A DNA stretch of 26,628 bases, from IMG/VR virus record IMGVR_UViG_3300025674_000316, positions 1 to 26,628 of that record. One strand, written 5' to 3'. This document shows positions 877-25,302 of the stretch, one piece after another. The stretch's first letter is position 1; the number at the start of each line of letters is the position of its first letter. A program made the position numbers and the translations under genes. This DNA comes from a virus. Under the pieces are notes generated by a model that was not told where the DNA came from, did no database searches, and worked only from the letters and a program-made list of their open reading frames with translations.

Positions 877-999
877 CAACATGAAAACAAAAATAAAAAA
901 TCAAATAAAAGATACAGAATCTTCTCAGGACATCAGAAACTATCTTATTACAAATATACCCTATTGAATTCACAAAGGGGTATTGAATTCATAAAGTTA
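842..999. other. Intergenic region between lysis genes and nuclease gene
   Basis: Holds the terminator above, a plus-strand 28-codon frame (881-967) of doubtful status, a TATATTTG -7-like box on the minus strand (951-958) without a well-spaced -33 box, and two copies of the dispersed TATTrAATTyAyA repeat. No other gene is visible. Confidence 0.6.
956..993 (+). repeat. Dispersed repeat pair (TATTGAATTCACA / TATTGAATTCATA)
   Basis: Two units at 962-974 and 981-993, start-to-start distance 19 bp. The first is preceded by CCC and the second by GGGG; together ATACCC (956-961) and GGGTAT (978-983) form an inverted repeat around the first unit. It lies just beyond the stop of the last late gene (1000-1002). 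Confidence 0.85.
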
Positions 1000-2443: not shown

Positions 2444-3718
2444 TTATATTGTTGTTAATTCTATTAACTCTGCGTCTGTAAGTGCTTCGTTAAATACCAT
2501 TAGTTGTTTTACTTTTCCGTTAAACTTAAAGTCAAAAGTTGGATAATCTATTGATAAATTATCTAATCCACTTATAGTTTCCGCTACAAATGAGCTATTC
2601 AATGATTGAGATACTCCGTTTATATAAACTTTGTAATCACTTGTGTTTTGTCCATATTGAACAGCCACTTTAATATCTTGAGTTAAGTCTGCAAGATATG
2701 TGTCTATTCTATTTTCATTTGAAGTTCCATTGTTATATAGATTCAAATCTCCTCCACCTGTAATCTGAAACATAATAGAATTATCAGGCGAACCATCAGA
2801 AAGCGAAATATACCTGTTTGAAGTGTCTGAATCATTAAGCATTGAAAATTCAGCAAACAACACACCCTCGTTGTCGTTAAACAAGTCAGCGTTACCTGCG
2901 TTCTCACATACATCGGCATTACGAGTTACAGTAGAACCTGATGTGGGTATGTAGGAAGTTGCGTAGCTTCCTTCTTCTAATTGCGCACCCCAAATAAAAA
3001 CCCCACTTGTTCCATCACCTAAAAAAGTAACACCATCAGCATCAGCAGAATAACCACTATTAGGTATTCCTGTAATATTAGGTGCAAAATTTGGAGATGT
3101 AGAGCTTGTTATATTTGTAAGTGTAATTTTATACCATTCATTACCTACCAACTCAATAGATGTATCTAATGGGCTTCCATAAGTTTCTAAAACTGCACCT
3201 ACTCCATTTAAATCATATACTGCTGCAGAAGGAGAATTGCCTGTACCTTGTCGAATATATAATCTTTCATATTCGTCTGATTTTGCATACAAAGTAAATG
3301 TGTATGTAGTTGTAGCCGAAACTGATGGTATAATTGCTACAAAATGGGTTGTATTTGTTGCAGATGCTATAACTTTATCAGCATTTTGTGTGCCATCAGG
3401 AGAAACAACTTGACTTGACAAAACACTTGAATTTGACAAAGTCCACTCACTAAAATCTTCTGAATACGTTACAAGATTAGTCCTACTCGGCTCTAAAAGT
3501 AAAGCAGGACAATCCTGTACCACTCCGTCAATCAAAGGGTAGTCCAATCTTGGTACACCACTTGCAACACTTTCAATCAGTCCGTCTTTGTTTACTCTTG
3601 TGGCAGAAGTTGCTCTTGTGTGGTCAAAATCGCCATCGCCATCAGCAGGTAAAACGGAATATAATGTACCGTCTTTAGTTCCACTTGGTATTAACGCTAA
3701 ACTTGCTTTATCGTACAT
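2444..3718 (-). CDS. Fibre/receptor-binding-like protein, paralogue of the upstream gene
   Basis: 424 residues starting MYDKASLALIPSGTKDG. Contains a DHTRATSATRVNKDGLIESV segment near residue 33, then LLLEPSRTNLVTYSED, a beta-rich carbohydrate-binding-like section, a YIPTSGSTVTRNADVC segment and a LamG/concanavalin-like C-terminus (YISLSDGS ... YKVYINGVSQ). The same segments in the same order occur in the gene just upstream, and parts are conserved at nucleotide level (for example ACAAGATTAGTCCT in both), which points to a tandem duplication. Likely a virion fibre or spike that binds cell-surface glycans; no enzymatic motif is seen. Confidence 0.68.
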   Translation of the reverse strand: MYDKASLALIPSGTKDGTLYSVLPADGDGDFDHTRATSATRVNKDGLIESVASGVPRLDYPLIDGVVQDCPALLLEPSRTNLVTYSEDFSEWTLSNSSVLSSQVVSPDGTQNADKVIASATNTTHFVAIIPSVSATTTYTFTLYAKSDEYERLYIRQGTGNSPSAAVYDLNGVGAVLETYGSPLDTSIELVGNEWYKITLTNITSSTSPNFAPNITGIPNSGYSADADGVTFLGDGTSGVFIWGAQLEEGSYATSYIPTSGSTVTRNADVCENAGNADLFNDNEGVLFAEFSMLNDSDTSNRYISLSDGSPDNSIMFQITGGGDLNLYNNGTSNENRIDTYLADLTQDIKVAVQYGQNTSDYKVYINGVSQSLNSSFVAETISGLDNLSIDYPTFDFKFNGKVKQLMVFNEALTDAELIELTTI

Positions 3719-3719
3719 A

Positions 3720-6221
3720 CTAACTTGTTAATTTTTCTAATTGTTCGTCTGTAAGAGCTTCTGTAAATACTGCAACGCATTTAACGTTACCTTCAAAATC
3801 TTGTCCGCCATCTCCCCTGTCAAAAGCTAACTCATTAAGACCTGTTGGTGTATTTCCGTTTGTGTCTGTTGCTCTTTCAGTTCCGTTTACCCACAAAGCA
3901 AAATCATTTTGTTTAAATTTAATTGCTACTTTAGTCATAGTCGGTGTAATTGCACCAAAGTTATATGTCATAAACGCTTGTGTTGAATTTGCACTCCTGA
4001 CCTCTACTGCAAATCTAAAATCTGTTGCACTATTTAAAAGTCCAATTTTTACTGCATTTGAATGAGTACCATCACTCAAACTTAACCATCTTTGCGTATT
4101 ATAATTAGCCAAAGCACTTATTTCAGCATACAATACTCCTTCTTCTGAATTAAAGTCTTGTGCAGAGCCACTATTATTGCATACGTCTGCATTACGAGTT
4201 ACTGTGCTTCCGTTTGTTGGGATGTAGGAGGTTGGGTAGCTTCCTGCTTCTGTTTGCGGATACTGAACAAATATATGACCTGTTCCAGAATTACCTATTC
4301 CACCATCAGTTTCAACAGGTTGAATATATACACCTGTACCACTTGCGTTGTTGAAGGTCATTGAGCATCTGTACCAACCATTGTTTATATATTTTATATC
4401 AGAAGAAATTAAATTAGAAGTAGTGCCTATTATACCATTTTCTAAATCAAAATAACATTGTTCAGGAATAGCACTAATTGCAATTCTTAAAAAATTATAA
4501 CTGCCTTTTTTGGCATACACACTAACTGTTGAAGTTGATGTAAACGATATAACACTTCTTATATTGTCGTATGCTAAACTTCTTTGTATTTTCCAAGCAT
4601 CATTAGAGTTTCCAACACCTAATTGACCGCTTGTTAATTGAATACCAGAAGATGCAACCCATTGTGTTAAATCCTCACTATACGTTACAAGATTAGTCCT
4701 CTGTGGCTCTAACAACAAACTACCCTCTCCATCTGTATAGTCTATTCTTGGTAAGTCTGTATCGTCTGTTATTTCGACTACTGATACGTTATCAATAAAT
4801 AGTGTACCTGTATCTGCTGAACCTCTTAAAACTCTTGCACTTGTATTTGTTGTTGATGAGGCATCAAAAATGTGGCTTACTCTTGTAACTCCGCTTGATG
4901 CAATAGTAATTGCTGAAGAGCTTGTGCCTAATAAATTTAAAATTACAGAAGTGCCTGTGTATGTTCCTATTTCTACATCTGCTTCTAATTTATATTTTTT
5001 CCCTGACTGAACAGGTACAGTAGAATCACTTGCTAAACCACTACCACTTTGAGCTGCAATAGTAACTACAGCTCTATTAGAATCAAAAGACAAAGTAGCA
5101 CCATTAATACCACTCCAATTCTGTCCGACCTCTTTTACTGATACGTTGTCTATTTCAAACTGTCCACTTGTGTTTAATACTATTCTTATATTAAAACTTG
5201 TAGGTGCTGTGCCATTAGCAGTAAAGTATAGAGTGTGTGTACCAACAGTTTGAGATAAAACATTTTGCGCAGAAGCTGTCGTGCCTGACAATTTAACTAC
5301 ACCATTGACTAAAGTACTATTAATAACTTCATACTGTAATTTATATAACTTACCACTCGTTAAAATACCACTTTGAGCTAAATCAGAATTAGTTGTACCT
5401 GTATATATTGCTTTACCATCACTTATACTCCACCCTGTACCCTTAATCCAATCACTATCAGTATCAAAGTTTCCGTTAGTAACAAGTTCACTACCTATCT
5501 GCTCAAAGTCTCCGTTTTGTACAAGCTCTCCACTTAATATCTGTACGTCCTCTACAAGCCCTTGCTCGTTTACTCTTGTAGCACTTGAACCTCTACTAAA
5601 GTCAAAGTCGGCTTCTTGTATTTCTTTTACGCTTACGTTGTCTATTGTATAAGTGTTGTTGTTTAAATTATTCCTTACTCCAATATAAGACAATGTGGAC
5701 GTTGCAACAAATGTCGCAGATAAACTTTGAGAATGTAACACGTTACGATTTGTTGAACCTGTACCTACACCTGTACCAACGCACAAATAATAATCGTTAC
5801 CTAATCCTGTGATATTAGCGTTTATATTATATCTTTTACCAACCTCAGTAGTTATACCTTGTTGAATAACTGAACCGCTAACATCGTCTAATTCTGCAAC
5901 TCCGTTAGAAATTGTTGCTCCATTAAATTTTAACCAATCACTATCTGTATCAAACGTGCCATTAGTAACCAATTCAGTAGGCAACACCTGATAAGGCGGT
6001 ATAACAGTATTTAAGCTACCATCTGAATATGCAGTAGGTGTTAAGACAATACTCGCTTTGTTGGATAAGTCTTTTAATATCTTATCTGTGCCATCAGAGT
6101 TCTCGTAATAGTCAGAATGATTGTACAGCTTGTTTGTTGCTGCTGCATCAAAGTACACATCGCCAAACCCCTCTGCGTTAGCGTTTCCCCAATTGCTTCT
6201 GTGATATATTTCGTTTGGCAT
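3720..6221 (-). CDS. Large modular tail fibre protein with repeated carbohydrate-binding-like modules
   Basis: 833 residues from MPNEIYHRSNWGNA. Three consecutive beta-rich modules follow the pattern ELVTNGTFDTDSDW ... IDNVSVKE (about 83-200, 235-350 and 350-485); this NG(N/T)F-DTDSDW start and DNVSV end resemble CBM4/9-type carbohydrate-binding modules. Between them is the SRGSSATRVNEQGLVEDV segment shared with the next gene. After RTNLVTYSED (about 505) come another glycan-binding-like section and a LamG-like C-terminus. Very Ser/Thr/Asn-rich, as usual for fibres. Probable role: adsorption to surface polysaccharide. The only downstream neighbour in the cluster is its shorter paralogue, one base away. 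Confidence 0.72.
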   Translation of the reverse strand: MPNEIYHRSNWGNANAEGFGDVYFDAAATNKLYNHSDYYENSDGTDKILKDLSNKASIVLTPTAYSDGSLNTVIPPYQVLPTELVTNGTFDTDSDWLKFNGATISNGVAELDDVSGSVIQQGITTEVGKRYNINANITGLGNDYYLCVGTGVGTGSTNRNVLHSQSLSATFVATSTLSYIGVRNNLNNNTYTIDNVSVKEIQEADFDFSRGSSATRVNEQGLVEDVQILSGELVQNGDFEQIGSELVTNGNFDTDSDWIKGTGWSISDGKAIYTGTTNSDLAQSGILTSGKLYKLQYEVINSTLVNGVVKLSGTTASAQNVLSQTVGTHTLYFTANGTAPTSFNIRIVLNTSGQFEIDNVSVKEVGQNWSGINGATLSFDSNRAVVTIAAQSGSGLASDSTVPVQSGKKYKLEADVEIGTYTGTSVILNLLGTSSSAITIASSGVTRVSHIFDASSTTNTSARVLRGSADTGTLFIDNVSVVEITDDTDLPRIDYTDGEGSLLLEPQRTNLVTYSEDLTQWVASSGIQLTSGQLGVGNSNDAWKIQRSLAYDNIRSVISFTSTSTVSVYAKKGSYNFLRIAISAIPEQCYFDLENGIIGTTSNLISSDIKYINNGWYRCSMTFNNASGTGVYIQPVETDGGIGNSGTGHIFVQYPQTEAGSYPTSYIPTNGSTVTRNADVCNNSGSAQDFNSEEGVLYAEISALANYNTQRWLSLSDGTHSNAVKIGLLNSATDFRFAVEVRSANSTQAFMTYNFGAITPTMTKVAIKFKQNDFALWVNGTERATDTNGNTPTGLNELAFDRGDGGQDFEGNVKCVAVFTEALTDEQLEKLTS

Positions 6222-8409: not shown

Positions 8410-8436
8410 AAAAAAAGAGGGAAGCGTTAGCCTCCC
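8410..8436 (-). terminator. Intrinsic terminator after the tail tube gene
   Basis: Minus strand GGGAGGC (8436-8430), loop TAAC, GCTTCCC (8425-8419), then TC and seven T (8416-8410). A 7-bp stem with one G-T pair. It sits between the tube gene and the 118-aa gene. Confidence 0.75.
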
Positions 8437-8468
8437 CCTATTAAATTCACACCCCTATTGAATTTATG
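8434..8468 (+). repeat. Dispersed repeat pair at the 3' end of the tube gene
   Basis: CCCCC-TATTAAATTCACA (8434-8451) and CCCC-TATTGAATTTATG (8452-8468), units 17 bp apart. The second unit contains the stop codon of the minus-strand tube gene (TAA at 8466-8464), and the pair sits between that stop and the terminator. Confidence 0.85.
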
Positions 8469-8988
8469 CACCATCTGGGTCAATGGGGTCGTTAGCACTC
8501 TCGTCAGGCGCAGTAGCAAAGAATGGAGGCGCAGTTTCCTGAGCAGTTACTGTTAAAGTAAATCCACTCAAGTCGCCCATAGCAGCACCAGTTACGATAG
8601 TACCACCAGTTACCTCAGCACCGTGTTCTTTACCAATCAACAAGTAATCTCCGTTGTAGGTTTCAACAACATAGTGCGCACGACCAGCGTTAAGTAATTT
8701 TAATTCTTCCTGAGTTTCAACATCCAAGTAAGCGAATGTCAAGTTCAAGGTACTTTCATAGAAAGTAGTTCCGTTCTCTCTTGATGAGGTAACAGTAGTT
8801 TCAAGGGAAGAATTACCCTTAATCTCAAACTTAAAGAATTCCGCACCAGAGGTAGGTAGTGTTACCGTACCAGATGAAGGCGTTAGGTCAGCAACAGCCG
8901 AACTATAATCAAGAATGAAAACATTCTTTAAGCCTCCTACTGAATTCTTGCAAGGGAGAGTTCTTCCTTTTGTAATTGCACAAGCCAT
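8464..8988 (-). CDS. Probable major tail tube protein
   Basis: 174 residues beginning MACAITKGRTLPCKNSVGGLKNVF, with FKFEIKGNSSLETTVTSSRENGTTFYE, then EELKLLNAGRAHYVVETYNGDYLLIGKEHGAEVTGGTIVTG and GDLSGFTLTVTAQE. The GNSSLET/SSRENGTTF and GxEHGAxVTGGxxxTGxAMGDxSGYTLT patterns are those of a protein seen next to the capsid gene in many Bacteroidota siphoviruses and thought to form the tail tube. Beta-rich composition fits. Separated from the capsid gene by one terminator and followed by another, as expected for a highly expressed structural gene. Confidence 0.62.
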   Translation of the reverse strand: MACAITKGRTLPCKNSVGGLKNVFILDYSSAVADLTPSSGTVTLPTSGAEFFKFEIKGNSSLETTVTSSRENGTTFYESTLNLTFAYLDVETQEELKLLNAGRAHYVVETYNGDYLLIGKEHGAEVTGGTIVTGAAMGDLSGFTLTVTAQETAPPFFATAPDESANDPIDPDGA

Positions 8989-14065: not shown

Positions 14066-16488
14066 AATACGTTCAATAATTCAAGTTTAGATTCGCCTGT
14101 CTTTAGATTGGTGTCTATTGAATTTATAGTAAACACCTTGTCGCCTATCTGAAATCTATCATTCAGCTTATAGTTTAGTAATATACTGTTTGGTAAATAT
14201 GCTGTCAGCTTAAATATACGCTTCTTTGGGTTGAAGGCGTCCTCTATATATGTTTTGTAAAATACCTTAAACAATGAGTTTGTTGTTGCCTCGTAGTCTG
14301 TTAAATTCCATTCATCAATTTCATTGTCAAAATTAAGAGTATATGATGGTGGTCTATATATTCTGTAAGACTGATATTGGATTGTAAATATATCATCAAC
14401 AAGAGTTAGTTCGTTATCACTATCAACTGAAACTACCGTTGTGATTTCTTGACTACCTAAGTTTAACACCCTATCACCAACTTCCACAGTAGTTAAAAAG
14501 TTTTGACTTGCAGCTATTAGTTTGTTAGTGGCAACAGATGCGACTATTCCGCTTTCAAGTGGCTCATCTTGATTAGAACCATCTTCATTAGTGTTTGATG
14601 GTCGCCAATAATTAGACAACTCATCATTTGTTGTTCCTATGTTAAAGTTTATACCATCTGTTAATCCTGTTTCTCTTATTCCATAAAATATAACAGGTTT
14701 GGTTAATGTTGGTTCATAATTAGCTGTTGGCTGCGGTGTTGCTTGTGGGTCGGGTTTAAAATTATCTCCTGCTGAATAACCCCATAATATATCTTTTTTA
14801 ACATCACCATTCACATCAAATAATCTCTCGTATTTTAAGTGTTCAAATGGTAGCTTAACGGTGTATGGCTTACCTCTATCTACGCCTTCAGGTTTAAACT
14901 CCTCGTCGCCAAAAATATGATTAAATATTTCCTCGTGCTGTTTCATCAACAATGTCGTGGGTTCTTGGTATTCAAAATCCACTTCGCTGAAGGGTATTGT
15001 TGAATCTACATCGTGTTGTGATGAATCAACATATTCTGTTATGTCAAATGTCTGTGGATTATCATCAAAGAAATCGTCAAGTGGTATCATTTTTATTTTA
15101 CCATAATCAGCATCAGATTCATCTGATACGTAATAAAGTGTAAGATTAAAGGTTTTTAGTATTCCAGACACAAAATCAATAACCTTCATTTTAGGTATTT
15201 CTTGAGAAATCAATATAGTTGATGTTGCAGATAGTACCCCATTACAATTCAGAACCTCCTCTTTTGGATTATCAACATTAACACTTCTAAATGTAACAGA
15301 TGGGGTGAATAAAAACGCCTGTTCAGACTTAACTATAAACTTAACAACCTTATTGTTTATTTTGTTTGGATGACCCAATAAATTTGTGTACAAGCTAAAG
15401 AACTCTATATAGTTTAAGTTTTGAGTTCCTGTAACATTGTTTTTAGTAGTTTTAAGGACACCATCTACATAAATTTCTATATCGTATTGTGTTGAAGTGT
15501 ATAAGCTTTCGGGGGTAATAGTTAAGTAATATCCTGCTGAAGCTTCCGTTGCACCTGCGATTATTTCTAAATCAGCCGCTTTATTTACTACACTTAATTC
15601 TTGACCATTAGAACTTATTGTAACGTATGTATCTCCGCTATCGTGTTGCCAATCTTCAAGCACCTTGACTCGTTCTCCATCTTCTTGTGAAGCCCCTATC
15701 GCACCCTTCCTTCTACTAAGCCACATATAAAGATTGGACATTGGAGTTGTAGATATGAAATCTGAATCAACAAACTCTATTCCGTACTTAGACTCTATGG
15801 CGTTTATTATGTCTTTTATTTTCAAGGCAGGTTTTAATTCTGTAAACCTCAACGCTACATTTTCTGAGTGTTCATTGTTGTGGTAAAATAAGTTACCATC
15901 CAAAGTATTAGAGTCGTGTCCTTCAGGATTTCTTGAATCGTAATATAATCTTTGAGTGTGTGTTATTAGTGGGTATATTATAGATTCTGAAAATAGACCT
16001 GTGGTTAATCCTGTTTGAACTTGGCTTAATCCGTAATCGTGGTCAAATGCACTTAGGTCTAATTGACTTAATTCATCATCTCCAAACAAATCGGTTAATG
16101 TTACTGTGTTCCCAAAGAATGTTATATTATAAGAATATGGTTTATTATCCTTCATTTTAACGCCATTAAGAAATATCTTGCCACTTCTAAAGGGTATGTA
16201 ATTTATTTCTATTATAGCGTCTTTCTTTTTTCTTGCATCAAAAACACCTGCCTCACTTCCATCTGATTGAATCTGACCATCTATAAAATAATTATAAAAG
16301 TGAGCGAATATCTTATTGTTTGTTTTAGAAGCAGGTAGGGTGAATGACTGAGAATAATCTGTAAACACTTTAGATAAATCTCGTATATCTTGTATCTTAG
16401 ATGTTATAGATATTGTTTCATCATCAAACAAATCTACCTTTTGGTAATCACCATAAGTATCCTTTATGTATAGAATAACTTTATTCAT
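14062..16488 (-). CDS. Large tail tip/hub-like structural protein
   Basis: 808 residues: MNKVILYIKDTYGDYQKVDLFDDETISITSKIQDIRDLSKVF then TDYSQSFTLPASKTNNKIFAHFYNYF, then a beta-rich body with many Asp/Asn, MKVIDFVSGILKTFNLTLYY and a C-terminus KLNDRFQIGDKVFTINSIDTNLKTGESKLELL. The N-terminal DYSQSFTLPASxxNNxIFxxFYN segment recurs in large tail proteins of Bacteroidota phages. A baseplate or tail-hub role is inferred from size and position. The start overlaps the upstream stop by one base (TAATG). Confidence 0.6.
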   Translation of the reverse strand: MNKVILYIKDTYGDYQKVDLFDDETISITSKIQDIRDLSKVFTDYSQSFTLPASKTNNKIFAHFYNYFIDGQIQSDGSEAGVFDARKKKDAIIEINYIPFRSGKIFLNGVKMKDNKPYSYNITFFGNTVTLTDLFGDDELSQLDLSAFDHDYGLSQVQTGLTTGLFSESIIYPLITHTQRLYYDSRNPEGHDSNTLDGNLFYHNNEHSENVALRFTELKPALKIKDIINAIESKYGIEFVDSDFISTTPMSNLYMWLSRRKGAIGASQEDGERVKVLEDWQHDSGDTYVTISSNGQELSVVNKAADLEIIAGATEASAGYYLTITPESLYTSTQYDIEIYVDGVLKTTKNNVTGTQNLNYIEFFSLYTNLLGHPNKINNKVVKFIVKSEQAFLFTPSVTFRSVNVDNPKEEVLNCNGVLSATSTILISQEIPKMKVIDFVSGILKTFNLTLYYVSDESDADYGKIKMIPLDDFFDDNPQTFDITEYVDSSQHDVDSTIPFSEVDFEYQEPTTLLMKQHEEIFNHIFGDEEFKPEGVDRGKPYTVKLPFEHLKYERLFDVNGDVKKDILWGYSAGDNFKPDPQATPQPTANYEPTLTKPVIFYGIRETGLTDGINFNIGTTNDELSNYWRPSNTNEDGSNQDEPLESGIVASVATNKLIAASQNFLTTVEVGDRVLNLGSQEITTVVSVDSDNELTLVDDIFTIQYQSYRIYRPPSYTLNFDNEIDEWNLTDYEATTNSLFKVFYKTYIEDAFNPKKRIFKLTAYLPNSILLNYKLNDRFQIGDKVFTINSIDTNLKTGESKLELLNVL

Positions 16489-18770: not shown

Positions 18771-19036
18771 AAGTTTTTATTGTGTGCGTTCTTTATTAGT
18801 TGTGCTTCCAATTCGTTCTTCTCTTTTTCAAATGTTAGGTAGTTGAGGCATTGGAATAATTCTGTTTGCGTAACGGCATCGAATCTAAGGACATCCCCTT
18901 GAGCAAGTCCATATATTGACTGATACCATCCCCACTTTGCGCCAAAGTTTGCTTGAGCAGATAAGTCTGTTCTTCCGTCAGACTGTTTTGTATAAAGTTC
19001 GGGATAGCTTTCAACAACTCCATCCCTAAATCGTAA
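18767..19036 (-). CDS. -1 frameshift extension of the tail assembly chaperone
   Basis: From the nine-T run (19043-19035, minus strand) the -1 frame stays open for 89 codons to a TGA at 18769-18767. It has no ATG near its beginning, so it needs ribosomal frameshifting. Its translation is clearly protein-like: FGAKWGWYQSIYGLAQGD, LRFDAVTQTELFQC and LNYLTFEKEKNELEAQLI resemble the C-terminal part of phage tail chaperones that have a W-x-WYxSIYxLAxGD motif. The 0-frame codons GTT TTT TTT contain T TTT TTT, a classical slippery heptamer. The fusion would be 171 + 89 = 260 residues, the analogue of lambda gpGT. Coupling of its stop to the next start supports use in vivo. Confidence 0.72.
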   Translation of the reverse strand, partial: LRFRDGVVESYPELYTKQSDGRTDLSAQANFGAKWGWYQSIYGLAQGDVLRFDAVTQTELFQCLNYLTFEKEKNELEAQLIKNAHNKNL

Positions 19037-19548
19037 AAAAAAACCATTGAACTCATTACCACATCAAGTGGCATCTCTCTCATTAGTTCAGATACCTCAT
19101 CACTTGGTTCGTATGGCGCAACAGTATATCTTTCCTTGCTTCTAAAGTTTACTGGGCGATAAAGCACAGCCATCGCTTTGTGCATTGTTTCCCAATCGGA
19201 AATGTTATCCTCAGCGTCTATATATTCGCCAAGAGAAATACGTTCAAGATTCGGTATGAATCCCATATCGACATCAAGTAGTTTAAAGTGGCGAATAAGC
19301 TCAGGTTTCTCTTCAAACGCTTTGGCGAGTATTTGCAATACCTTTTCTACTTCGCTTACTGGAATACGCATTACATCCTTTAGTTCTATGTTACAGAATA
19401 TCTCAATAAGTTTCATATTGAGAAAGTCAGTTGCGCTCTCGTCATCTTTGTTCTGCTCAACAAGTTTCATATACCTCTGATACTGTCCAAGCGTAATGTC
19501 GCCAAGAGTAGTAGGTACTGATAATTCTAATTGTGCTTTCTTACTCAT
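18835..19548 (-). CDS. Tail assembly chaperone, 0-frame product (lambda G-like)
   Basis: 237 residues. MSKKAQLELSVPTTLGDITLGQYQRYMKLVEQN ... MKLIEIFCNIELKDVMRIPVSEVEKVLQILAKAF ... MGFIPNLERISLGEYIDAEDNISDWETMHKAMAVLYRPV ... MREMPLDVVMSSMVFFYDLGMELL. The (P)TxLxDITLGQYQ and LERISLGEYID patterns plus the WExMHKAMAVLYRP segment are typical of tail chaperones in Bacteroidota phages. It would hold the tape measure during tail assembly. At codons 169-171 (V-F-F) it carries the slippery run that leads to the longer product; after that the two frames overlap for about 200 nt. First gene of the structural operon, about 70 nt after the palindrome array. Confidence 0.7.
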   Translation of the reverse strand: MSKKAQLELSVPTTLGDITLGQYQRYMKLVEQNKDDESATDFLNMKLIEIFCNIELKDVMRIPVSEVEKVLQILAKAFEEKPELIRHFKLLDVDMGFIPNLERISLGEYIDAEDNISDWETMHKAMAVLYRPVNFRSKERYTVAPYEPSDEVSELMREMPLDVVMSSMVFFYDLGMELLKAIPNFIQNSLTEEQTYLLKQTLAQSGDGISQYMDLLKGMSLDSMPLRKQNYSNASTT

Positions 19549-19760
19549 ATTAAATTAACATTGAATTTAGTTATTGTTTGTCCAACTGCCTTAGTGGCGG
19601 TATATATTATAATAGTTATACTATGTATCACTAAGTGTATCATGTTACACTAAGTGTATTATGTTACACTATGTGTATTACGTTACACTAAGTGTACCAT
19701 AAATATATAAAATACACTAAGTGTATCATACACTAAGTGTATTATGTTACACTAAGTGTA
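19549..19760. other. Control region upstream of the structural operon
   Basis: No gene. It contains the array of seven 13-bp palindromes and then about 70 AT-rich bases before the chaperone ATG. I see no TAnnTTTG -7 box facing the structural genes, so late transcription here may need an activator or a non-standard promoter. Confidence 0.6.
19617..19760. repeat. Array of TACACTwAGTGTA palindromes
   Basis: Near-perfect 13-bp palindromes at 19646-19658, 19665-19677, 19684-19696, 19713-19725, 19729-19741 and 19748-19760, plus a variant at 19626-19639 and a degenerate copy (TATACTATGTATC) from 19617. Centre spacings are 19, 19, 29, 16 and 19 bp. Most copies are preceded by GT and followed by TTAT or TCAT. 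Each is a symmetric site for a dimeric DNA-binding protein. Confidence 0.92.
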
Positions 19761-20009
19761 TCATACACCCTTATTGTTTTTATCGTAGTAGTGGCGATAT
19801 ATTTCCCATATTTTAGCCGACCATTCTTCTTTAGAATACGTCTGAGGCGAAATAAGCGTTTCTAAGCCACTTTCTACGACTATCTGATATCTACCTCCAC
19901 TCGGCACAGGATATGCTCTTATATCGTTTCTAATGCACCAAGAGAAGGCTTTTAGGGAATGCTCGTGATTGTTTAAATCTTCAGTTACTCTTTTTTTTCT
20001 TGTCGCCAT
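19761..20009 (-). CDS. Small conserved-type phage protein, leaderless (82 aa)
   Basis: MATRKKRVTEDLNNHEHSLKAFSWCIRNDIRAYPVPSGGRYQIVVESGLETLISPQTYSKEEWSAKIWEIYRHYYDKNNKGV. Basic N-terminus, then an alpha-beta core. I do not recognise the family; the layout (basic tail, AYPVPSGGRYQIVVE strand pair, final helix) could suit a small DNA-binding protein. It stands alone, with its own promoter four bases before the ATG, and its stop codon (TGA 19763-19761) touches the palindrome array. That position makes it a candidate regulator of the array, which is inference only. Confidence 0.65.
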   Translation of the reverse strand: MATRKKRVTEDLNNHEHSLKAFSWCIRNDIRAYPVPSGGRYQIVVESGLETLISPQTYSKEEWSAKIWEIYRHYYDKNNKGV

Positions 20010-20013
20010 AAGA

Positions 20014-20044
20014 CAAAGATACGAAATACCTATTGAATTTACAA
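20014..20044 (-). promoter_or_regulatory. Promoter of the 82-aa gene, overlapping a dispersed repeat
   Basis: Minus strand TTG (20044-20042), 20 bp, TATCTTTG (20021-20014), then TCTT and the ATG. Spacer and -33 box coincide with one TATTGAATTTACA repeat unit (20031-20043). Confidence 0.68.
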
Positions 20045-20060
20045 GGGTATTGAATTTACA
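20028..20060 (+). repeat. Dispersed repeat pair over the promoter of the 82-aa gene
   Basis: TATTGAATTTACA at 20031-20043 and 20048-20060 (17 bp apart), preceded by ACC and AGGG respectively. AATACC (20026-20031) and GGTATT form a short inverted repeat across the first unit. Confidence 0.85.
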
Positions 20061-20350
20061 TTGGCAGATGGGAATTGAGGTATGAATAGAGTTTAGCTAT
20101 AACACACCCTGCGTACCTTCCTACGTCAGAGTTAAGAATATTCCTACAAATTACACACAAAGTGCAATAAATTAGCAGGGGTGATGCGATTTAAGGCTAT
20201 TTTAAGCCCCTCTAATGGCTTCAAATGGTTTGGGTGGTATGTAGGTATTAAATTGAGGAGATAATGCGTTAGAATAGAGATAAACCCCCTTATTTAACTT
20301 TATCCCCTACAATATATCCATACAAACAAACTGAGCTACAATAACATAAC

Positions 20351-21420: not shown

Positions 21421-21512
21421 CAAATATGCAACGCTTTTTTTTATCTAATGTTAAGCTAATGTTAAGAAATTGTAAACTTAACGTTAAGAAATTGTAAACT
21501 ACTAATGTTAAA
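21421..21512. promoter_or_regulatory. Early control region A with AATGTTAAG repeats
   Basis: AATGTTAAG at 21447-21455 and 21458-21466 (11 bp apart), AACGTTAAG at 21480-21488 (22 bp further) and AATGTTAAA at 21504-21512, i.e. copies near helical phase. A -7-like box (minus strand CATATTTG, 21428-21421) lies on the left and a plus-strand TAGCTTTG at 21543-21550 on the right. The layout matches the second region at 23377-23427. Likely operator for a phage repressor. Confidence 0.6.
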
Positions 21513-21542
21513 AACTTAACACAAAAGAAACATAAAAAAAAG

Positions 21543-21614: not shown

Positions 21615-21727
21615 TATTGAATTGACAAGCCTATTAAATTCATAGGGGTATTAAATTCATAGGGGTATTAAATTCATAGGGGTATTAAATTCATACCCCT
21701 ATTAAATTTACACCTATTGAATTTATA
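21615..21727 (+). repeat. Seven-unit tandem array of the dispersed repeat
   Basis: Units TATTrAATTyAyA (first has GACA) start at 21615, 21632, 21649, 21666, 21683, 21700 and 21715: five 17-bp steps and one of 15. Three units are preceded by GGGG and one by CCCC; 21649-21695 is three exact copies of GGGGTATTAAATTCATA apart from the first flank. GGGGTAT and ATACCCC around the fifth unit (21679-21699) form a perfect 7-bp inverted repeat. The last unit contains the stop codon of the zinc-ribbon gene. Confidence 0.93.
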
Positions 21728-21863
21728 GAATTGTTGGCAATCCAAACTCATCTGTTCCAATTTCCAAATCAAAATCAAATCCACAATTCTCACATAAGAA
21801 ATTGTCTTTATGGTTATCGTGGAAACATACTACACATGCTTTTTTATATTCTGCTTTATTCAT
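21723..21863 (-). CDS. Small zinc-ribbon-like protein (46 aa)
   Basis: ATG at 21861-21863, stop at 21723-21725 inside the last repeat unit. MNKAEYKKACVVCFHDNHKD then NFLCENCGFDFDLEIG: Cys pairs C10-x2-C13 and C24-x2-C27 form a zinc-ribbon pattern, followed by an acidic tail. Such mini-ribbons in phages often bind nucleic acid or host RNA polymerase, but no partner is visible. Confidence 0.62.
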   Translation of the reverse strand: MNKAEYKKACVVCFHDNHKDNFLCENCGFDFDLEIGTDEFGLPTIL

Positions 21864-23376: not shown

Positions 23377-23427
23377 CAAACATAGACACAAATTTTTTTT
23401 CCAATGTTAAGCCAATGTTAAGAAATT
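23377..23427. promoter_or_regulatory. Early control region B: promoter and AATGTTAAG operator
   Basis: Minus-strand promoter TTG (23404-23402), 17 bp, TATGTTTG (23384-23377) for the early operon. AATGTTAAG occurs at 23403-23411 and 23414-23422 (11 bp apart), overlapping the -33 box. From AATTTCTTAACATT through TTTGTACCA the minus strand aligns with control region A. Divergent to the plus-strand promoter beside it. Confidence 0.68.
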
Positions 23428-23526: not shown

Positions 23527-23531
23527 ATACC

Positions 23532-23544
23532 TATTAAATTCATA
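23532..23544 (+). repeat. Dispersed repeat unit in the leader of the DUF5664 gene
   Basis: TATTAAATTCATA, 4 nt before the ATG at 23549, so it occupies the ribosome-binding zone. Confidence 0.85.
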
Positions 23545-23548
23545 GAGC

Positions 23549-23974
23549 ATGAAAACACAAGACACAACAGGGGGTATTAAATTCACAGGCGATTATTTAG
23601 ACGAAGCCGTTGAATATATCAACGAAGCAAACGAGGGTATTAAATTCACAGAGGGGGGTATTAAATTCACAAGCAGACTCCAAGAGGAGGCTGTTAAGAA
23701 ACGAAGGAAACAAACTCCAATCTTTAGTGGGGTATTGAATTACTTTCCCGATGCAATAAGAGAAGTCGCCCAATGCTCATTCGTGGGCAACGAGCAACAC
23801 AATCCTAACACTCCTTTACATTGGGATAGAAGTAAGTCAGGCGATGAATTAGACGCCCTCGCAAGACATCTACTTGAAGCTGGCACAATAGATACAGATG
23901 GTATTCGCCATTCAGCTAAGGTAGCGTGGAGAGCATTAGCCAACCTTCAGAAAGAGATAGAGCAGTCAAAATAA
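23549..23974 (+). CDS. DUF5664-type (d)NTP diphosphohydrolase with GIKFT repeats
   Basis: 141 residues, the only confident plus-strand gene. Residues about 60-138 (GVLNYFPDAIREVAQCSFVG, NEQHNPNTPLHWDRSKS, GDELDALARHLLEAG, DGIRHSAKVAWRALANLQ) match the DUF5664 / dATP-dGTP diphosphohydrolase N-terminal family, MazG-related; members in some phages remove dGTP or dATP. The expected reaction is dNTP to dNMP plus pyrophosphate, but substrate is unproven. The first 50 residues are unusual: GIKFT at 9-13, 30-34 and 37-41, each encoded by the dispersed DNA repeat (23575-23587, 23638-23650, 23659-23671). The linker between copies is acidic, followed by a basic KKRRK. Flanked by an attenuator-like hairpin and a terminator. 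Confidence 0.75.
   Translation: MKTQDTTGGIKFTGDYLDEAVEYINEANEGIKFTEGGIKFTSRLQEEAVKKRRKQTPIFSGVLNYFPDAIREVAQCSFVGNEQHNPNTPLHWDRSKSGDELDALARHLLEAGTIDTDGIRHSAKVAWRALANLQKEIEQSK
23571..23671 (+). repeat. Three in-frame copies of the dispersed repeat inside the gene
   Basis: GGGG-TATTAAATTCACA at 23571-23587, GGG-TATTAAATTCACA at 23635-23650 and GGGGGG-TATTAAATTCACA at 23653-23671. The 13-bp cores are identical. A degenerate fourth copy, GGGGTATTGAATTAC (from 23729), is read in another frame as GVLNY. Confidence 0.88.
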
Positions 23975-24087: not shown

Positions 24088-25302
24088 TTACCTTATTACA
24101 TACATACCTTTTGGTACGCTACGAGTAAGTAGGTATTGAATTGCGTATCTACTTCCATCAATACCGTGATTCCAGTTGTCAATCGGAATACTTCCCTTCA
24201 ACTTCCAAGCATAGTTATTGAACTCTTTAATGAGGTTTATAGAACCTTTATCAACCACCATGTCGTAGTCTTGCATTAGGGCGATTCCTGTTAAGATACT
24301 ACCTTTCTTTTTTATCGTTGGCGTTATATTGAGTCCTTTCATCTTCAACTCGCTTATTAGTCGAGGCTCACTATTATCGCACACTATAAGCTGTTTTCCT
24401 GCGATTCTACGGCACATCTCAAAGATATTGGAGGTGGACATACCAGCCTTGTAGAAATGCTCTCTAATCCATATTATTTTGCGTGTCTTGTCTATGGCGA
24501 TTTCTGTAAGCGCTGAAGGGTCTGTTGAGAAACCAAAGTCCAGCCCAAAGATTGTGTCTTGTTCTTCATCGAACTCACCAATGCGCCAATGGGTAAATAC
24601 AACGCCCTCTGCTCTATCGAGCCAACCACCAAGTATCTGGTGCTTATACTTGTCTGGTCTGCGCTCTCTCATATCTTCTACTTGGGCGACAAAGGATTCA
24701 GACAAGTGCGCCTTGTTGTCAAGGTACGTTGTGTGAATGTAGTTTATGTTTTCGCTATCGCCTAAGTACCCATCGGCAATCCCTCTGTTTTGGAAAAACC
24801 TCTGATATATCCAATGCTCTTTTGTAGTAGGGTTTAGGATTAAGATACACCTATTCTGTTTACCAGTCGCCCTAACCGAATAGTCAATCTTATCGAATGA
24901 TTCTTCGTCTGTAAGTTCTTCTGCCTCATCAAGAACGAAAGTAGTTACACCTTGAATAGACTTCAGCTTTGCTGTTTGGTCGCCACTTGCAGTTTTGATA
25001 CCACTAAAGAATATACTACTACCAGTTAGATTGTTTATGATTTCTGTTTTGGTTACGGTGAAATGTTCTCCAATGCCCATAAGTTCCAACTTCTCTAAGA
25101 ACTCAGGTATAATCGACATACTTGCCGAAGTCATTGTGTATCGTGTAAAAAGTATCTTATGTCCTTGCTCGTATGTGAGAAGTACAAGGAATGTGTTTAC
25201 TGCAAACGATTTACCGCTACCTCGCCCACCAGTACAGATATGGTATCTACTTGGCGAATTGAATAGACTATGGTACTTTGGATTTAGATTTACTTTTTTC
25301 AT
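24088..25302 (-). CDS. terL: Terminase large subunit (PBSX/Terminase_3 type)
   Basis: 404 residues. Walker A GGRGSGKS (25-32), Walker B FVLDEAEE with D125 and catalytic E126, coupling motif-like ILILNPT, then the RNase H-like nuclease domain with acidic residues in IFGLDFGFSTDP, LIVCDNSEPRLI and WNHGIDGSRYAIQYLL. This is the ATP-driven DNA packaging motor with headful or site-specific cutting. The family is the PBSX-like large terminase. The start overlaps the stop of a 44-aa micro-protein by ATGA. It is separated from the portal gene by more than 16 kb, which is unusual. No terminator of its own is evident downstream apart from the weak bidirectional hairpin near 23980. Confidence 0.93.
   Translation of the reverse strand: MKKVNLNPKYHSLFNSPSRYHICTGGRGSGKSFAVNTFLVLLTYEQGHKILFTRYTMTSASMSIIPEFLEKLELMGIGEHFTVTKTEIINNLTGSSIFFSGIKTASGDQTAKLKSIQGVTTFVLDEAEELTDEESFDKIDYSVRATGKQNRCILILNPTTKEHWIYQRFFQNRGIADGYLGDSENINYIHTTYLDNKAHLSESFVAQVEDMRERRPDKYKHQILGGWLDRAEGVVFTHWRIGEFDEEQDTIFGLDFGFSTDPSALTEIAIDKTRKIIWIREHFYKAGMSTSNIFEMCRRIAGKQLIVCDNSEPRLISELKMKGLNITPTIKKKGSILTGIALMQDYDMVVDKGSINLIKEFNNYAWKLKGSIPIDNWNHGIDGSRYAIQYLLTRSVPKGMYVIR

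Follow-up and report, generated by a model that had tools for sequence, protein, structure and literature searches.

Repeats and genes in the window

The DNA analysed here, referred to as the window, is a viral record, 26,628 bases long, that encodes a terminase, a portal protein, tail proteins, Erf and an endolysin. The terminase shares 58% identity with its counterpart in Nonlabens phage P12024L. The gene for the large terminase subunit lies on the minus strand (24088..25302) and was taken as the strand reference. The main tandem array of the repeats described here is found at 21615..21727 on the plus strand and consists of seven units, spaced 17, 17, 17, 17, 17 and 15 bp apart, six of which have a GG or CC flank. 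As read by leftward transcription, it is TRTRAATTYAATA(SS), i.e., TRTRAATTYAATA followed by GG or CC. The initial annotation had counted seven flanked units at this place; all seven are indeed on the plus strand, but the first one (21615) differs from the core at one position and is flanked by CT. The last unit contains the stop codon (TAA) of a minus-strand ORF that encodes a zinc-ribbon-like protein of 46 amino acids (21723..21863).

Further plus-strand copies are dispersed over the window. Pair A (960..993, cores at 962 and 981, spacing 19) has the ORF at 1106-1507 on one side and the operon with Erf on the other, and 1 nt away from the pair in the leftward direction there is a -7 promoter box, TATATTTG, on the minus strand (951..958). 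The right unit of pair B (8437..8468, cores at 8439 and 8456, spacing 17) overlaps the stop codon of the leftward ORF at 8464-8988, and the pair is directly followed by an intrinsic terminator on the minus strand (8410..8436), with GGGAGGC, a loop and GCTTCCCTC preceding a T-run. Pair C (20029..20060, cores at 20031 and 20048, spacing 17) is situated in the promoter region of the leftward ORF at 19761-20009, which encodes cl9, and a minus-strand -7 box, TATCTTTG (20014..20021), separates it from the cl9 start codon. On the terminase side, one site (23530..23544, core at 23532) is located just upstream of a plus-strand ORF (23549..23974) with a dGTP_diPhyd_N domain (PF18909), the N-terminal leader of which is built over the site cluster. 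Three sites in this ORF, at 23573, 23636 and 23657 (span 23573..23671, cores at 23575, 23638 and 23659), have (G)GIKFT as their in-frame product. The pairs, the single copy at 23532 and the three in-gene copies had all been listed before, and the usual spacing of 17 bp that was claimed for them also holds for the main array and for pairs B and C.

Comparison of relatives allowed us to sharpen the motif to (GG or CC)TATTRAATT, mostly followed by YAYA and sometimes by GNN. This adds three weaker plus-strand copies that were absent from the earlier list: a single copy, GGTATTAAATT, at 20244..20254; a copy in the conserved domain of the plus-strand ORF (23731..23741), where it encodes GVLNY; and one within the 3' end of the terminase gene (24132..24142, GGTATTGAATTGCGTA), with similar copies in L123, L131, L149 and L154. 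The exact-core matches at 14116, 21866 and 26476 (the last one on the minus strand) have no GG or CC flank and are probably not family members. In the window, the refined motif occurs 19 times on the plus strand and twice on the minus strand, whereas 300 dinucleotide shuffles gave 0.15 copies on average and never more than 2; the family thus passes the shuffled-sequence test that had been proposed for it. The core with at most one mismatch is found 23 times, where 1.5 matches are expected by chance. The repeat family is therefore real and no product of chance. Rfam gave no match to the repeat, and a generic sigma-70 promoter scan was uninformative here.

Several other features of the window were observed. 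At 841-960, the site-linked -7 box is followed about 60 to 110 nt further on by a strong terminator and then by the start of the next operon, and the same layout is present at that junction in G006, G007, G025, G017 and G010; the product may be a short leader transcript or a small RNA. An array of 13-bp palindromes, TACACTWAGTGTA, in part with a period of 19, extends over 19603-19768, immediately upstream of the ORF at 18835-19548 (cl4), and G017 and G016 have TATACTAAGTATA arrays at the matching place. Possibly, these palindromes are the operators of a second regulator. Direct repeats around AATGTTAAG occur at 21437-21520 and 23393-23427, and GTTAAA or TTAACA direct repeats, such as GCCAAATGTTAAAGTTTTGTTAAAAT, stand just after the main array in many relatives; these direct repeats are candidates for an AT-rich unwinding element or another operator. 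Two stretches of 108 nt (2907-3014 and 4180-4287), 73% identical and 1273 bp apart, lie in neighbouring tail-protein ORFs, suggesting a duplicated tail gene.

Conservation, polarity and placement in related phages

We found 71 viral stretches with two cores 17 bp apart. In a collection in which 84,980 species of bacteria and archaea are represented by one genome each, the tandem pattern occurred in only five stretches, none of which encodes a gene related to those of these phages over the length examined. A GG/CC-flanked site pair is present in L073 and L074, two contigs of a Flavobacteriales metagenome-assembled genome (TMED96), and no gene similar to those of these phages was found within the 8 kb examined. 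Related contigs, 33 in number and whole or in large part, were compared, and dozens of them share the motif as well as its orientation, spacing, flanks and positions, so that the family also passes the conservation test proposed in the initial annotation. Sites recur at the junction in front of the Erf operon, at that between cl20 and cl19, in the cl9 promoter, at the junction with the main array and on the 3' side of the terminase gene. In nearly all related genomes, tandem units form an array in AT-rich intergenic DNA, and in most relatives this array consists of 3 to 6 units at an operon junction; G011, G023 and G024 have little besides this array. In the sister clade of P12024L-type phages, half-sites number 1 plus 5 in 827 kb, compared to 3 plus 337 in 698 kb of the clade with sites, in a locus set slightly smaller than the one used for the orientation count below. 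The repeat is a system of one whole clade, and the sister clade around Nonlabens phage P12024L has it at background level only.

The sites are strongly polar. Among the viral loci with a related terminase, 370 half-motifs are oriented opposite to the terminase gene and 3 in the same direction. In the viral contigs found by the pair of cores, too, almost every copy is on one strand, in line with the single orientation noted before for the window. As almost all genes run one way, polarity along the genome axis and polarity relative to transcription are inseparable. The placement of the sites follows transcription landmarks. Intergenic DNA makes up 15% of the sequence and holds 85% of the sites (n = 289), and 37% of the sites are located at most 160 nt upstream of an intrinsic terminator, compared to 10.5% of random intergenic positions; about three quarters of the predicted terminators are without any site. 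The stop codons of the terminase, ParB-like, cl20, zinc-ribbon and other genes overlap a site. TRA within the site can serve as a stop codon, and that is why several unrelated genes end on it. A TAnnTTTG -7 box starts 0 to 2 nt downstream of a site 12 times, where about 1 case is expected. The flavobacterial -7 box occupies positions -12 to -5 (PMC9723704), and an adjoining site would therefore span roughly -30 to -13.

One of the roles proposed earlier, that of a self-spreading mini-repeat without a role for the phage, would fit the many copies, the tandem growth and the strong preference for certain spacings (15, 17, 19 and 21). It is hard to reconcile with the same orientation at separate loci and with the nonrandom placement at stop codons, terminators and -7 boxes, and the repeat is absent from sister phages with similar structural genes, while its core is conserved among site-bearing phages whose terminases are 71 to 100% identical. 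We regard this as the least probable of the explanations considered. The two other proposed roles, regulator sites and replication iterons, are both still live.

The two flanking bases are GG in 58 cases, CC in 72 and CG or GC in 7 (7/137). GG and CC are interchangeable, and their order among neighbouring units is random: neighbours differ in 125 of 246 cases, where 122 are expected, and the alternation of GGGG and CCCC that had been described is not borne out. The same numbers apply to the hairpins that had been proposed around single units, since complementary flanks of neighbours occur at random frequency (again 125/246 versus 122 expected). If hairpins mattered, these flanks would be complementary, and we conclude that hairpins are not the point. 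This result also bears on the explanation that the sites act in the leftward transcript, as a 3' UTR binding site or part of a terminator, and are recognised as RNA. Such a role would be in line with the single orientation relative to transcription, with the frequent position between stop codon and terminator and with the fact that in some genomes the GG/CC flank forms part of the terminator stem. It is made unlikely by the random complementarity of the flanks, which leaves no conserved hairpin, by the sites in promoter regions upstream of the -7 box and by the lack of an Rfam match.

A plus-strand ORF with the dGTP_diPhyd_N domain covers the terminase-side cluster in the window and in G006, G007, G009, G012, G022 and G028. 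Its leader is poorly conserved, and the site in it reads GIKFT or PIEFT in one frame and VLNSQ in another; the minus-strand homologues, which lie elsewhere in other genomes, contain none of these peptides and have GVLKY instead of GVLNY. The site cluster is present at the same place in other genomes that do not have the ORF. The in-gene copies thus belong to the conserved terminase-side cluster, with the DNA site rather than the peptide as the constant element. This suggests a DNA site that shapes a protein, as the leader of a phage gene has largely been built over these sites.

A candidate binding protein and the question of an origin

Presence and absence of proteins were compared over 18 long genomes with sites and 11 sister genomes. 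The comparison points to the replication module, i.e., the cl10 exonuclease, cl11, the cl13 primase-helicase, cl26, cl23 and cl22. The last protein is present in all 18 long site-bearing genomes and weakly in 3 of the 11 sister genomes, a co-occurrence pattern that cl10, cl11, cl13, cl23 and cl26 also show; within the module, only cl22 has a recognised sequence-specific DNA-binding fold. It is a winged-helix protein of 86 to 117 amino acids, encoded beside the primase-helicase and downstream of Erf, and it matches the HTH_36 domain and resembles the DNA-binding part of phage replication initiators. Residues R67, T68, Y70 and R71 of the recognition helix and G90, G93, K94 and R96 of the wing are invariant or nearly so, in subgroups that are 29 to 51% identical. 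Structure prediction gave a winged-helix model (pLDDT 73) with MarR-type proteins and CodY as the nearest folds. In about half of the genomes, a site is found 0.7 to 1.8 kb upstream of cl22 and is usually placed in front of the cl22 operon. In the window's own phage cl22 is not seen, because the window ends before the region where it would lie. In a correlation of motif distances with protein distances, no protein stood out, cl22 included.

Other proteins were considered as binders and rejected. The sigma-like cl7 is present in 10 of the 11 site-free sister genomes, and cl9 is missing in G033, a contig that may be partial. With cl18, the sites would be variant DnaA boxes: this protein carries a DnaA C-terminal domain (PF08299) and is present in most site-bearing genomes, and the right half of the site, TTYAYA, resembles the tail of a DnaA box. 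Sites and protein do not always go together, however, as G005 has sites without detectable cl18 and cl18 occurs without sites in 5 of the 11 sister genomes, among them P12024L, and we consider this explanation very improbable.

Winged-helix proteins serve in both fork-arrest and segregation roles in known systems. The sites might accordingly be polar replication-fork or segregation sites, of the Ter/RTP or tubC/TubR kind, oriented along the genome axis that their direction follows, and cl22 has a weak sequence match to TubR (4asn, E 0.086). We give this only a small chance: placement follows transcription landmarks, neither TubZ nor ParA is among the families listed for G025, and a ParB-like gene occurs in only 6 of the 18 long genomes.

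A stronger rival is that the tandem array is a replication origin with iterons, to which the initiator-like winged-helix protein binds in order to load the primase-helicase, and that the dispersed copies are secondary (autoregulation, titration or handcuffing). The unit spacing in arrays ranges from 15 to 21 with a mode of 17, which is the near-constant period in AT-rich DNA that is seen in iterons. The sites are co-inherited with the module of primase-helicase and winged-helix protein, and the sister clade has neither the sites nor that primase-helicase. Moreover, cl22 matches the PHROG family 'replication initiation protein' in 13 of 13 cases, as well as DnaD/O-like families, AATGTTAA-type direct repeats follow many arrays, and nearly all related genomes possess the array, some of them with little else. 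Against an origin stands the distance of the array, mostly about 7 to 11 kb from cl22 and the primase-helicase in genomes with arrays of at least 3 units, so that the initiator gene, itself assigned as a candidate, does not adjoin it. cl22 has no initiator C-terminal part, and the polarity, the overlap with stop codons and the contact with -7 boxes of the dispersed copies would be left unexplained. The cumulative GC-skew minimum that had been suggested as a check was not found at the array. In about half of the 17 genomes examined, the array instead lies close to the maximum of the raw skew, and neutral, four-fold sites show no skew switch at this position. We consider a primary origin role possible, with the odds against it.

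In the arrays of L001-L071 and L118-L188, spacings of 15, 17, 19 and 21 are common and those of 18 and 20 nearly absent. Helical phasing is no explanation for this preference for odd numbers, and the spacings of 21 and 27 are partly in-frame coding.

Proposed function and comparison with known systems

The explanation that we favour, with a probability of roughly 0.45, is that the repeats are polar double-stranded DNA sites of one trans-acting phage protein, most likely cl22, that controls transcription, and that the array may double as an iteron origin. The sites have a direction and mark the junctions between the leftward operons of the phage. Bound next to a -7 box, the protein would control initiation, most simply by repression, and at sites that lie in a fixed orientation between a stop codon and a terminator, the bound protein would be an obstacle to leftward RNA polymerase, much as the mycobacteriophage L5 repressor is at its operators and stoperators. 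The tandem array of 3 to 6 units, which is the most constant element, may in addition be an iteron origin of the same protein. Both the random flanks and the sites upstream of -7 boxes, which are outside the transcript of that promoter, argue for recognition as DNA, and inside the plus-strand ORF the sites are preserved in at least two reading frames and also in antisense orientation, which is conservation at the DNA level. The GG/CC step is probably read by DNA shape.

The closest known behaviour is that of the cluster A mycobacteriophages such as L5 and Bxb1, which have dispersed asymmetric operators and stoperators of about 13 bp in promoters and short intergenic gaps, oriented with transcription and with a motif that drifts between relatives, and whose repressors hinder the polymerase at stoperators (PMC6550527, PMC9283540). 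The sites described here are likewise dispersed and asymmetric, lie in promoters and short intergenic gaps, drift in motif and are oriented relative to transcription (370 versus 3 with respect to the terminase direction, axis and transcription being inseparable). The cluster A phages differ in being temperate, with 20 to 30 sites and a two-domain monomeric repressor (HTH plus Stoperator domain), whereas in the present phages the sites form tandem arrays, follow a fixed rule for the GG/CC flank and are found beside intrinsic terminators, and the candidate is a short winged-helix protein. No integrase was found among the 45 scanned proteins of the apparently complete genome G025 (Pfam, and PHROG among the best 25 families listed), and a prophage role as in L5 is therefore doubtful; nor was an L5-type repressor among the families listed for this genome.

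Three other systems share some features. Cluster O mycobacteriophages (Corndog) have many 17-bp repeats of unknown function across a genome that is not obviously temperate (PMC4351075), which is similar to the spread seen here. Those repeats are true inverted repeats for which orientation is meaningless, and about one third of them are inside genes, whereas the present motif is asymmetric at its outer positions rather than a 7-bp inverted repeat, and it is polar, often tandem and found at operon ends. The start-associated sequences of cluster K mycobacteriophages are 13-bp oriented repeats with G/C-rich ends (PMC3203893) and resemble our sites in this respect. They include a motif for ribosome binding and are placed 3 to 7 bp ahead of start codons, whereas the sites in these phages do not take that position and are associated with stop codons, terminators and -7 boxes. 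Iteron origins of the phage lambda O and P1 RepA type also consist of tandem direct repeats in AT-rich DNA, with an initiator-like DNA-binding protein in the replication module; here, in contrast, about 7 to 11 kb separate the array from the initiator-like gene in most genomes, and the array is one component of a more extensive set of polar operon-junction sites. On present evidence, the repeats behave most like the dispersed operators and stoperators of phages and also have features of iterons, and they belong to none of these families.

A more specific proposal, which we put forward only tentatively and as rather doubtful, is that a stand-alone relative of winged-helix initiators reads one polar site family both as an iteron origin, in the array, and as stoperator-like sites, at operon junctions, and that a probably virulent phage thereby couples the start of replication to the insulation of its one-way operons. 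If true, recognition of a GG-or-CC flank by its shape would be out of the ordinary. The function of the sites is directly testable, as the motif is defined, the sister clade is free of sites and provides a natural control, and there is one short candidate protein. The repeats would represent a system of dispersed, oriented sites in relatives of flavobacterial phages, outside the actinobacteriophages in which stoperators and similar repeats were described.
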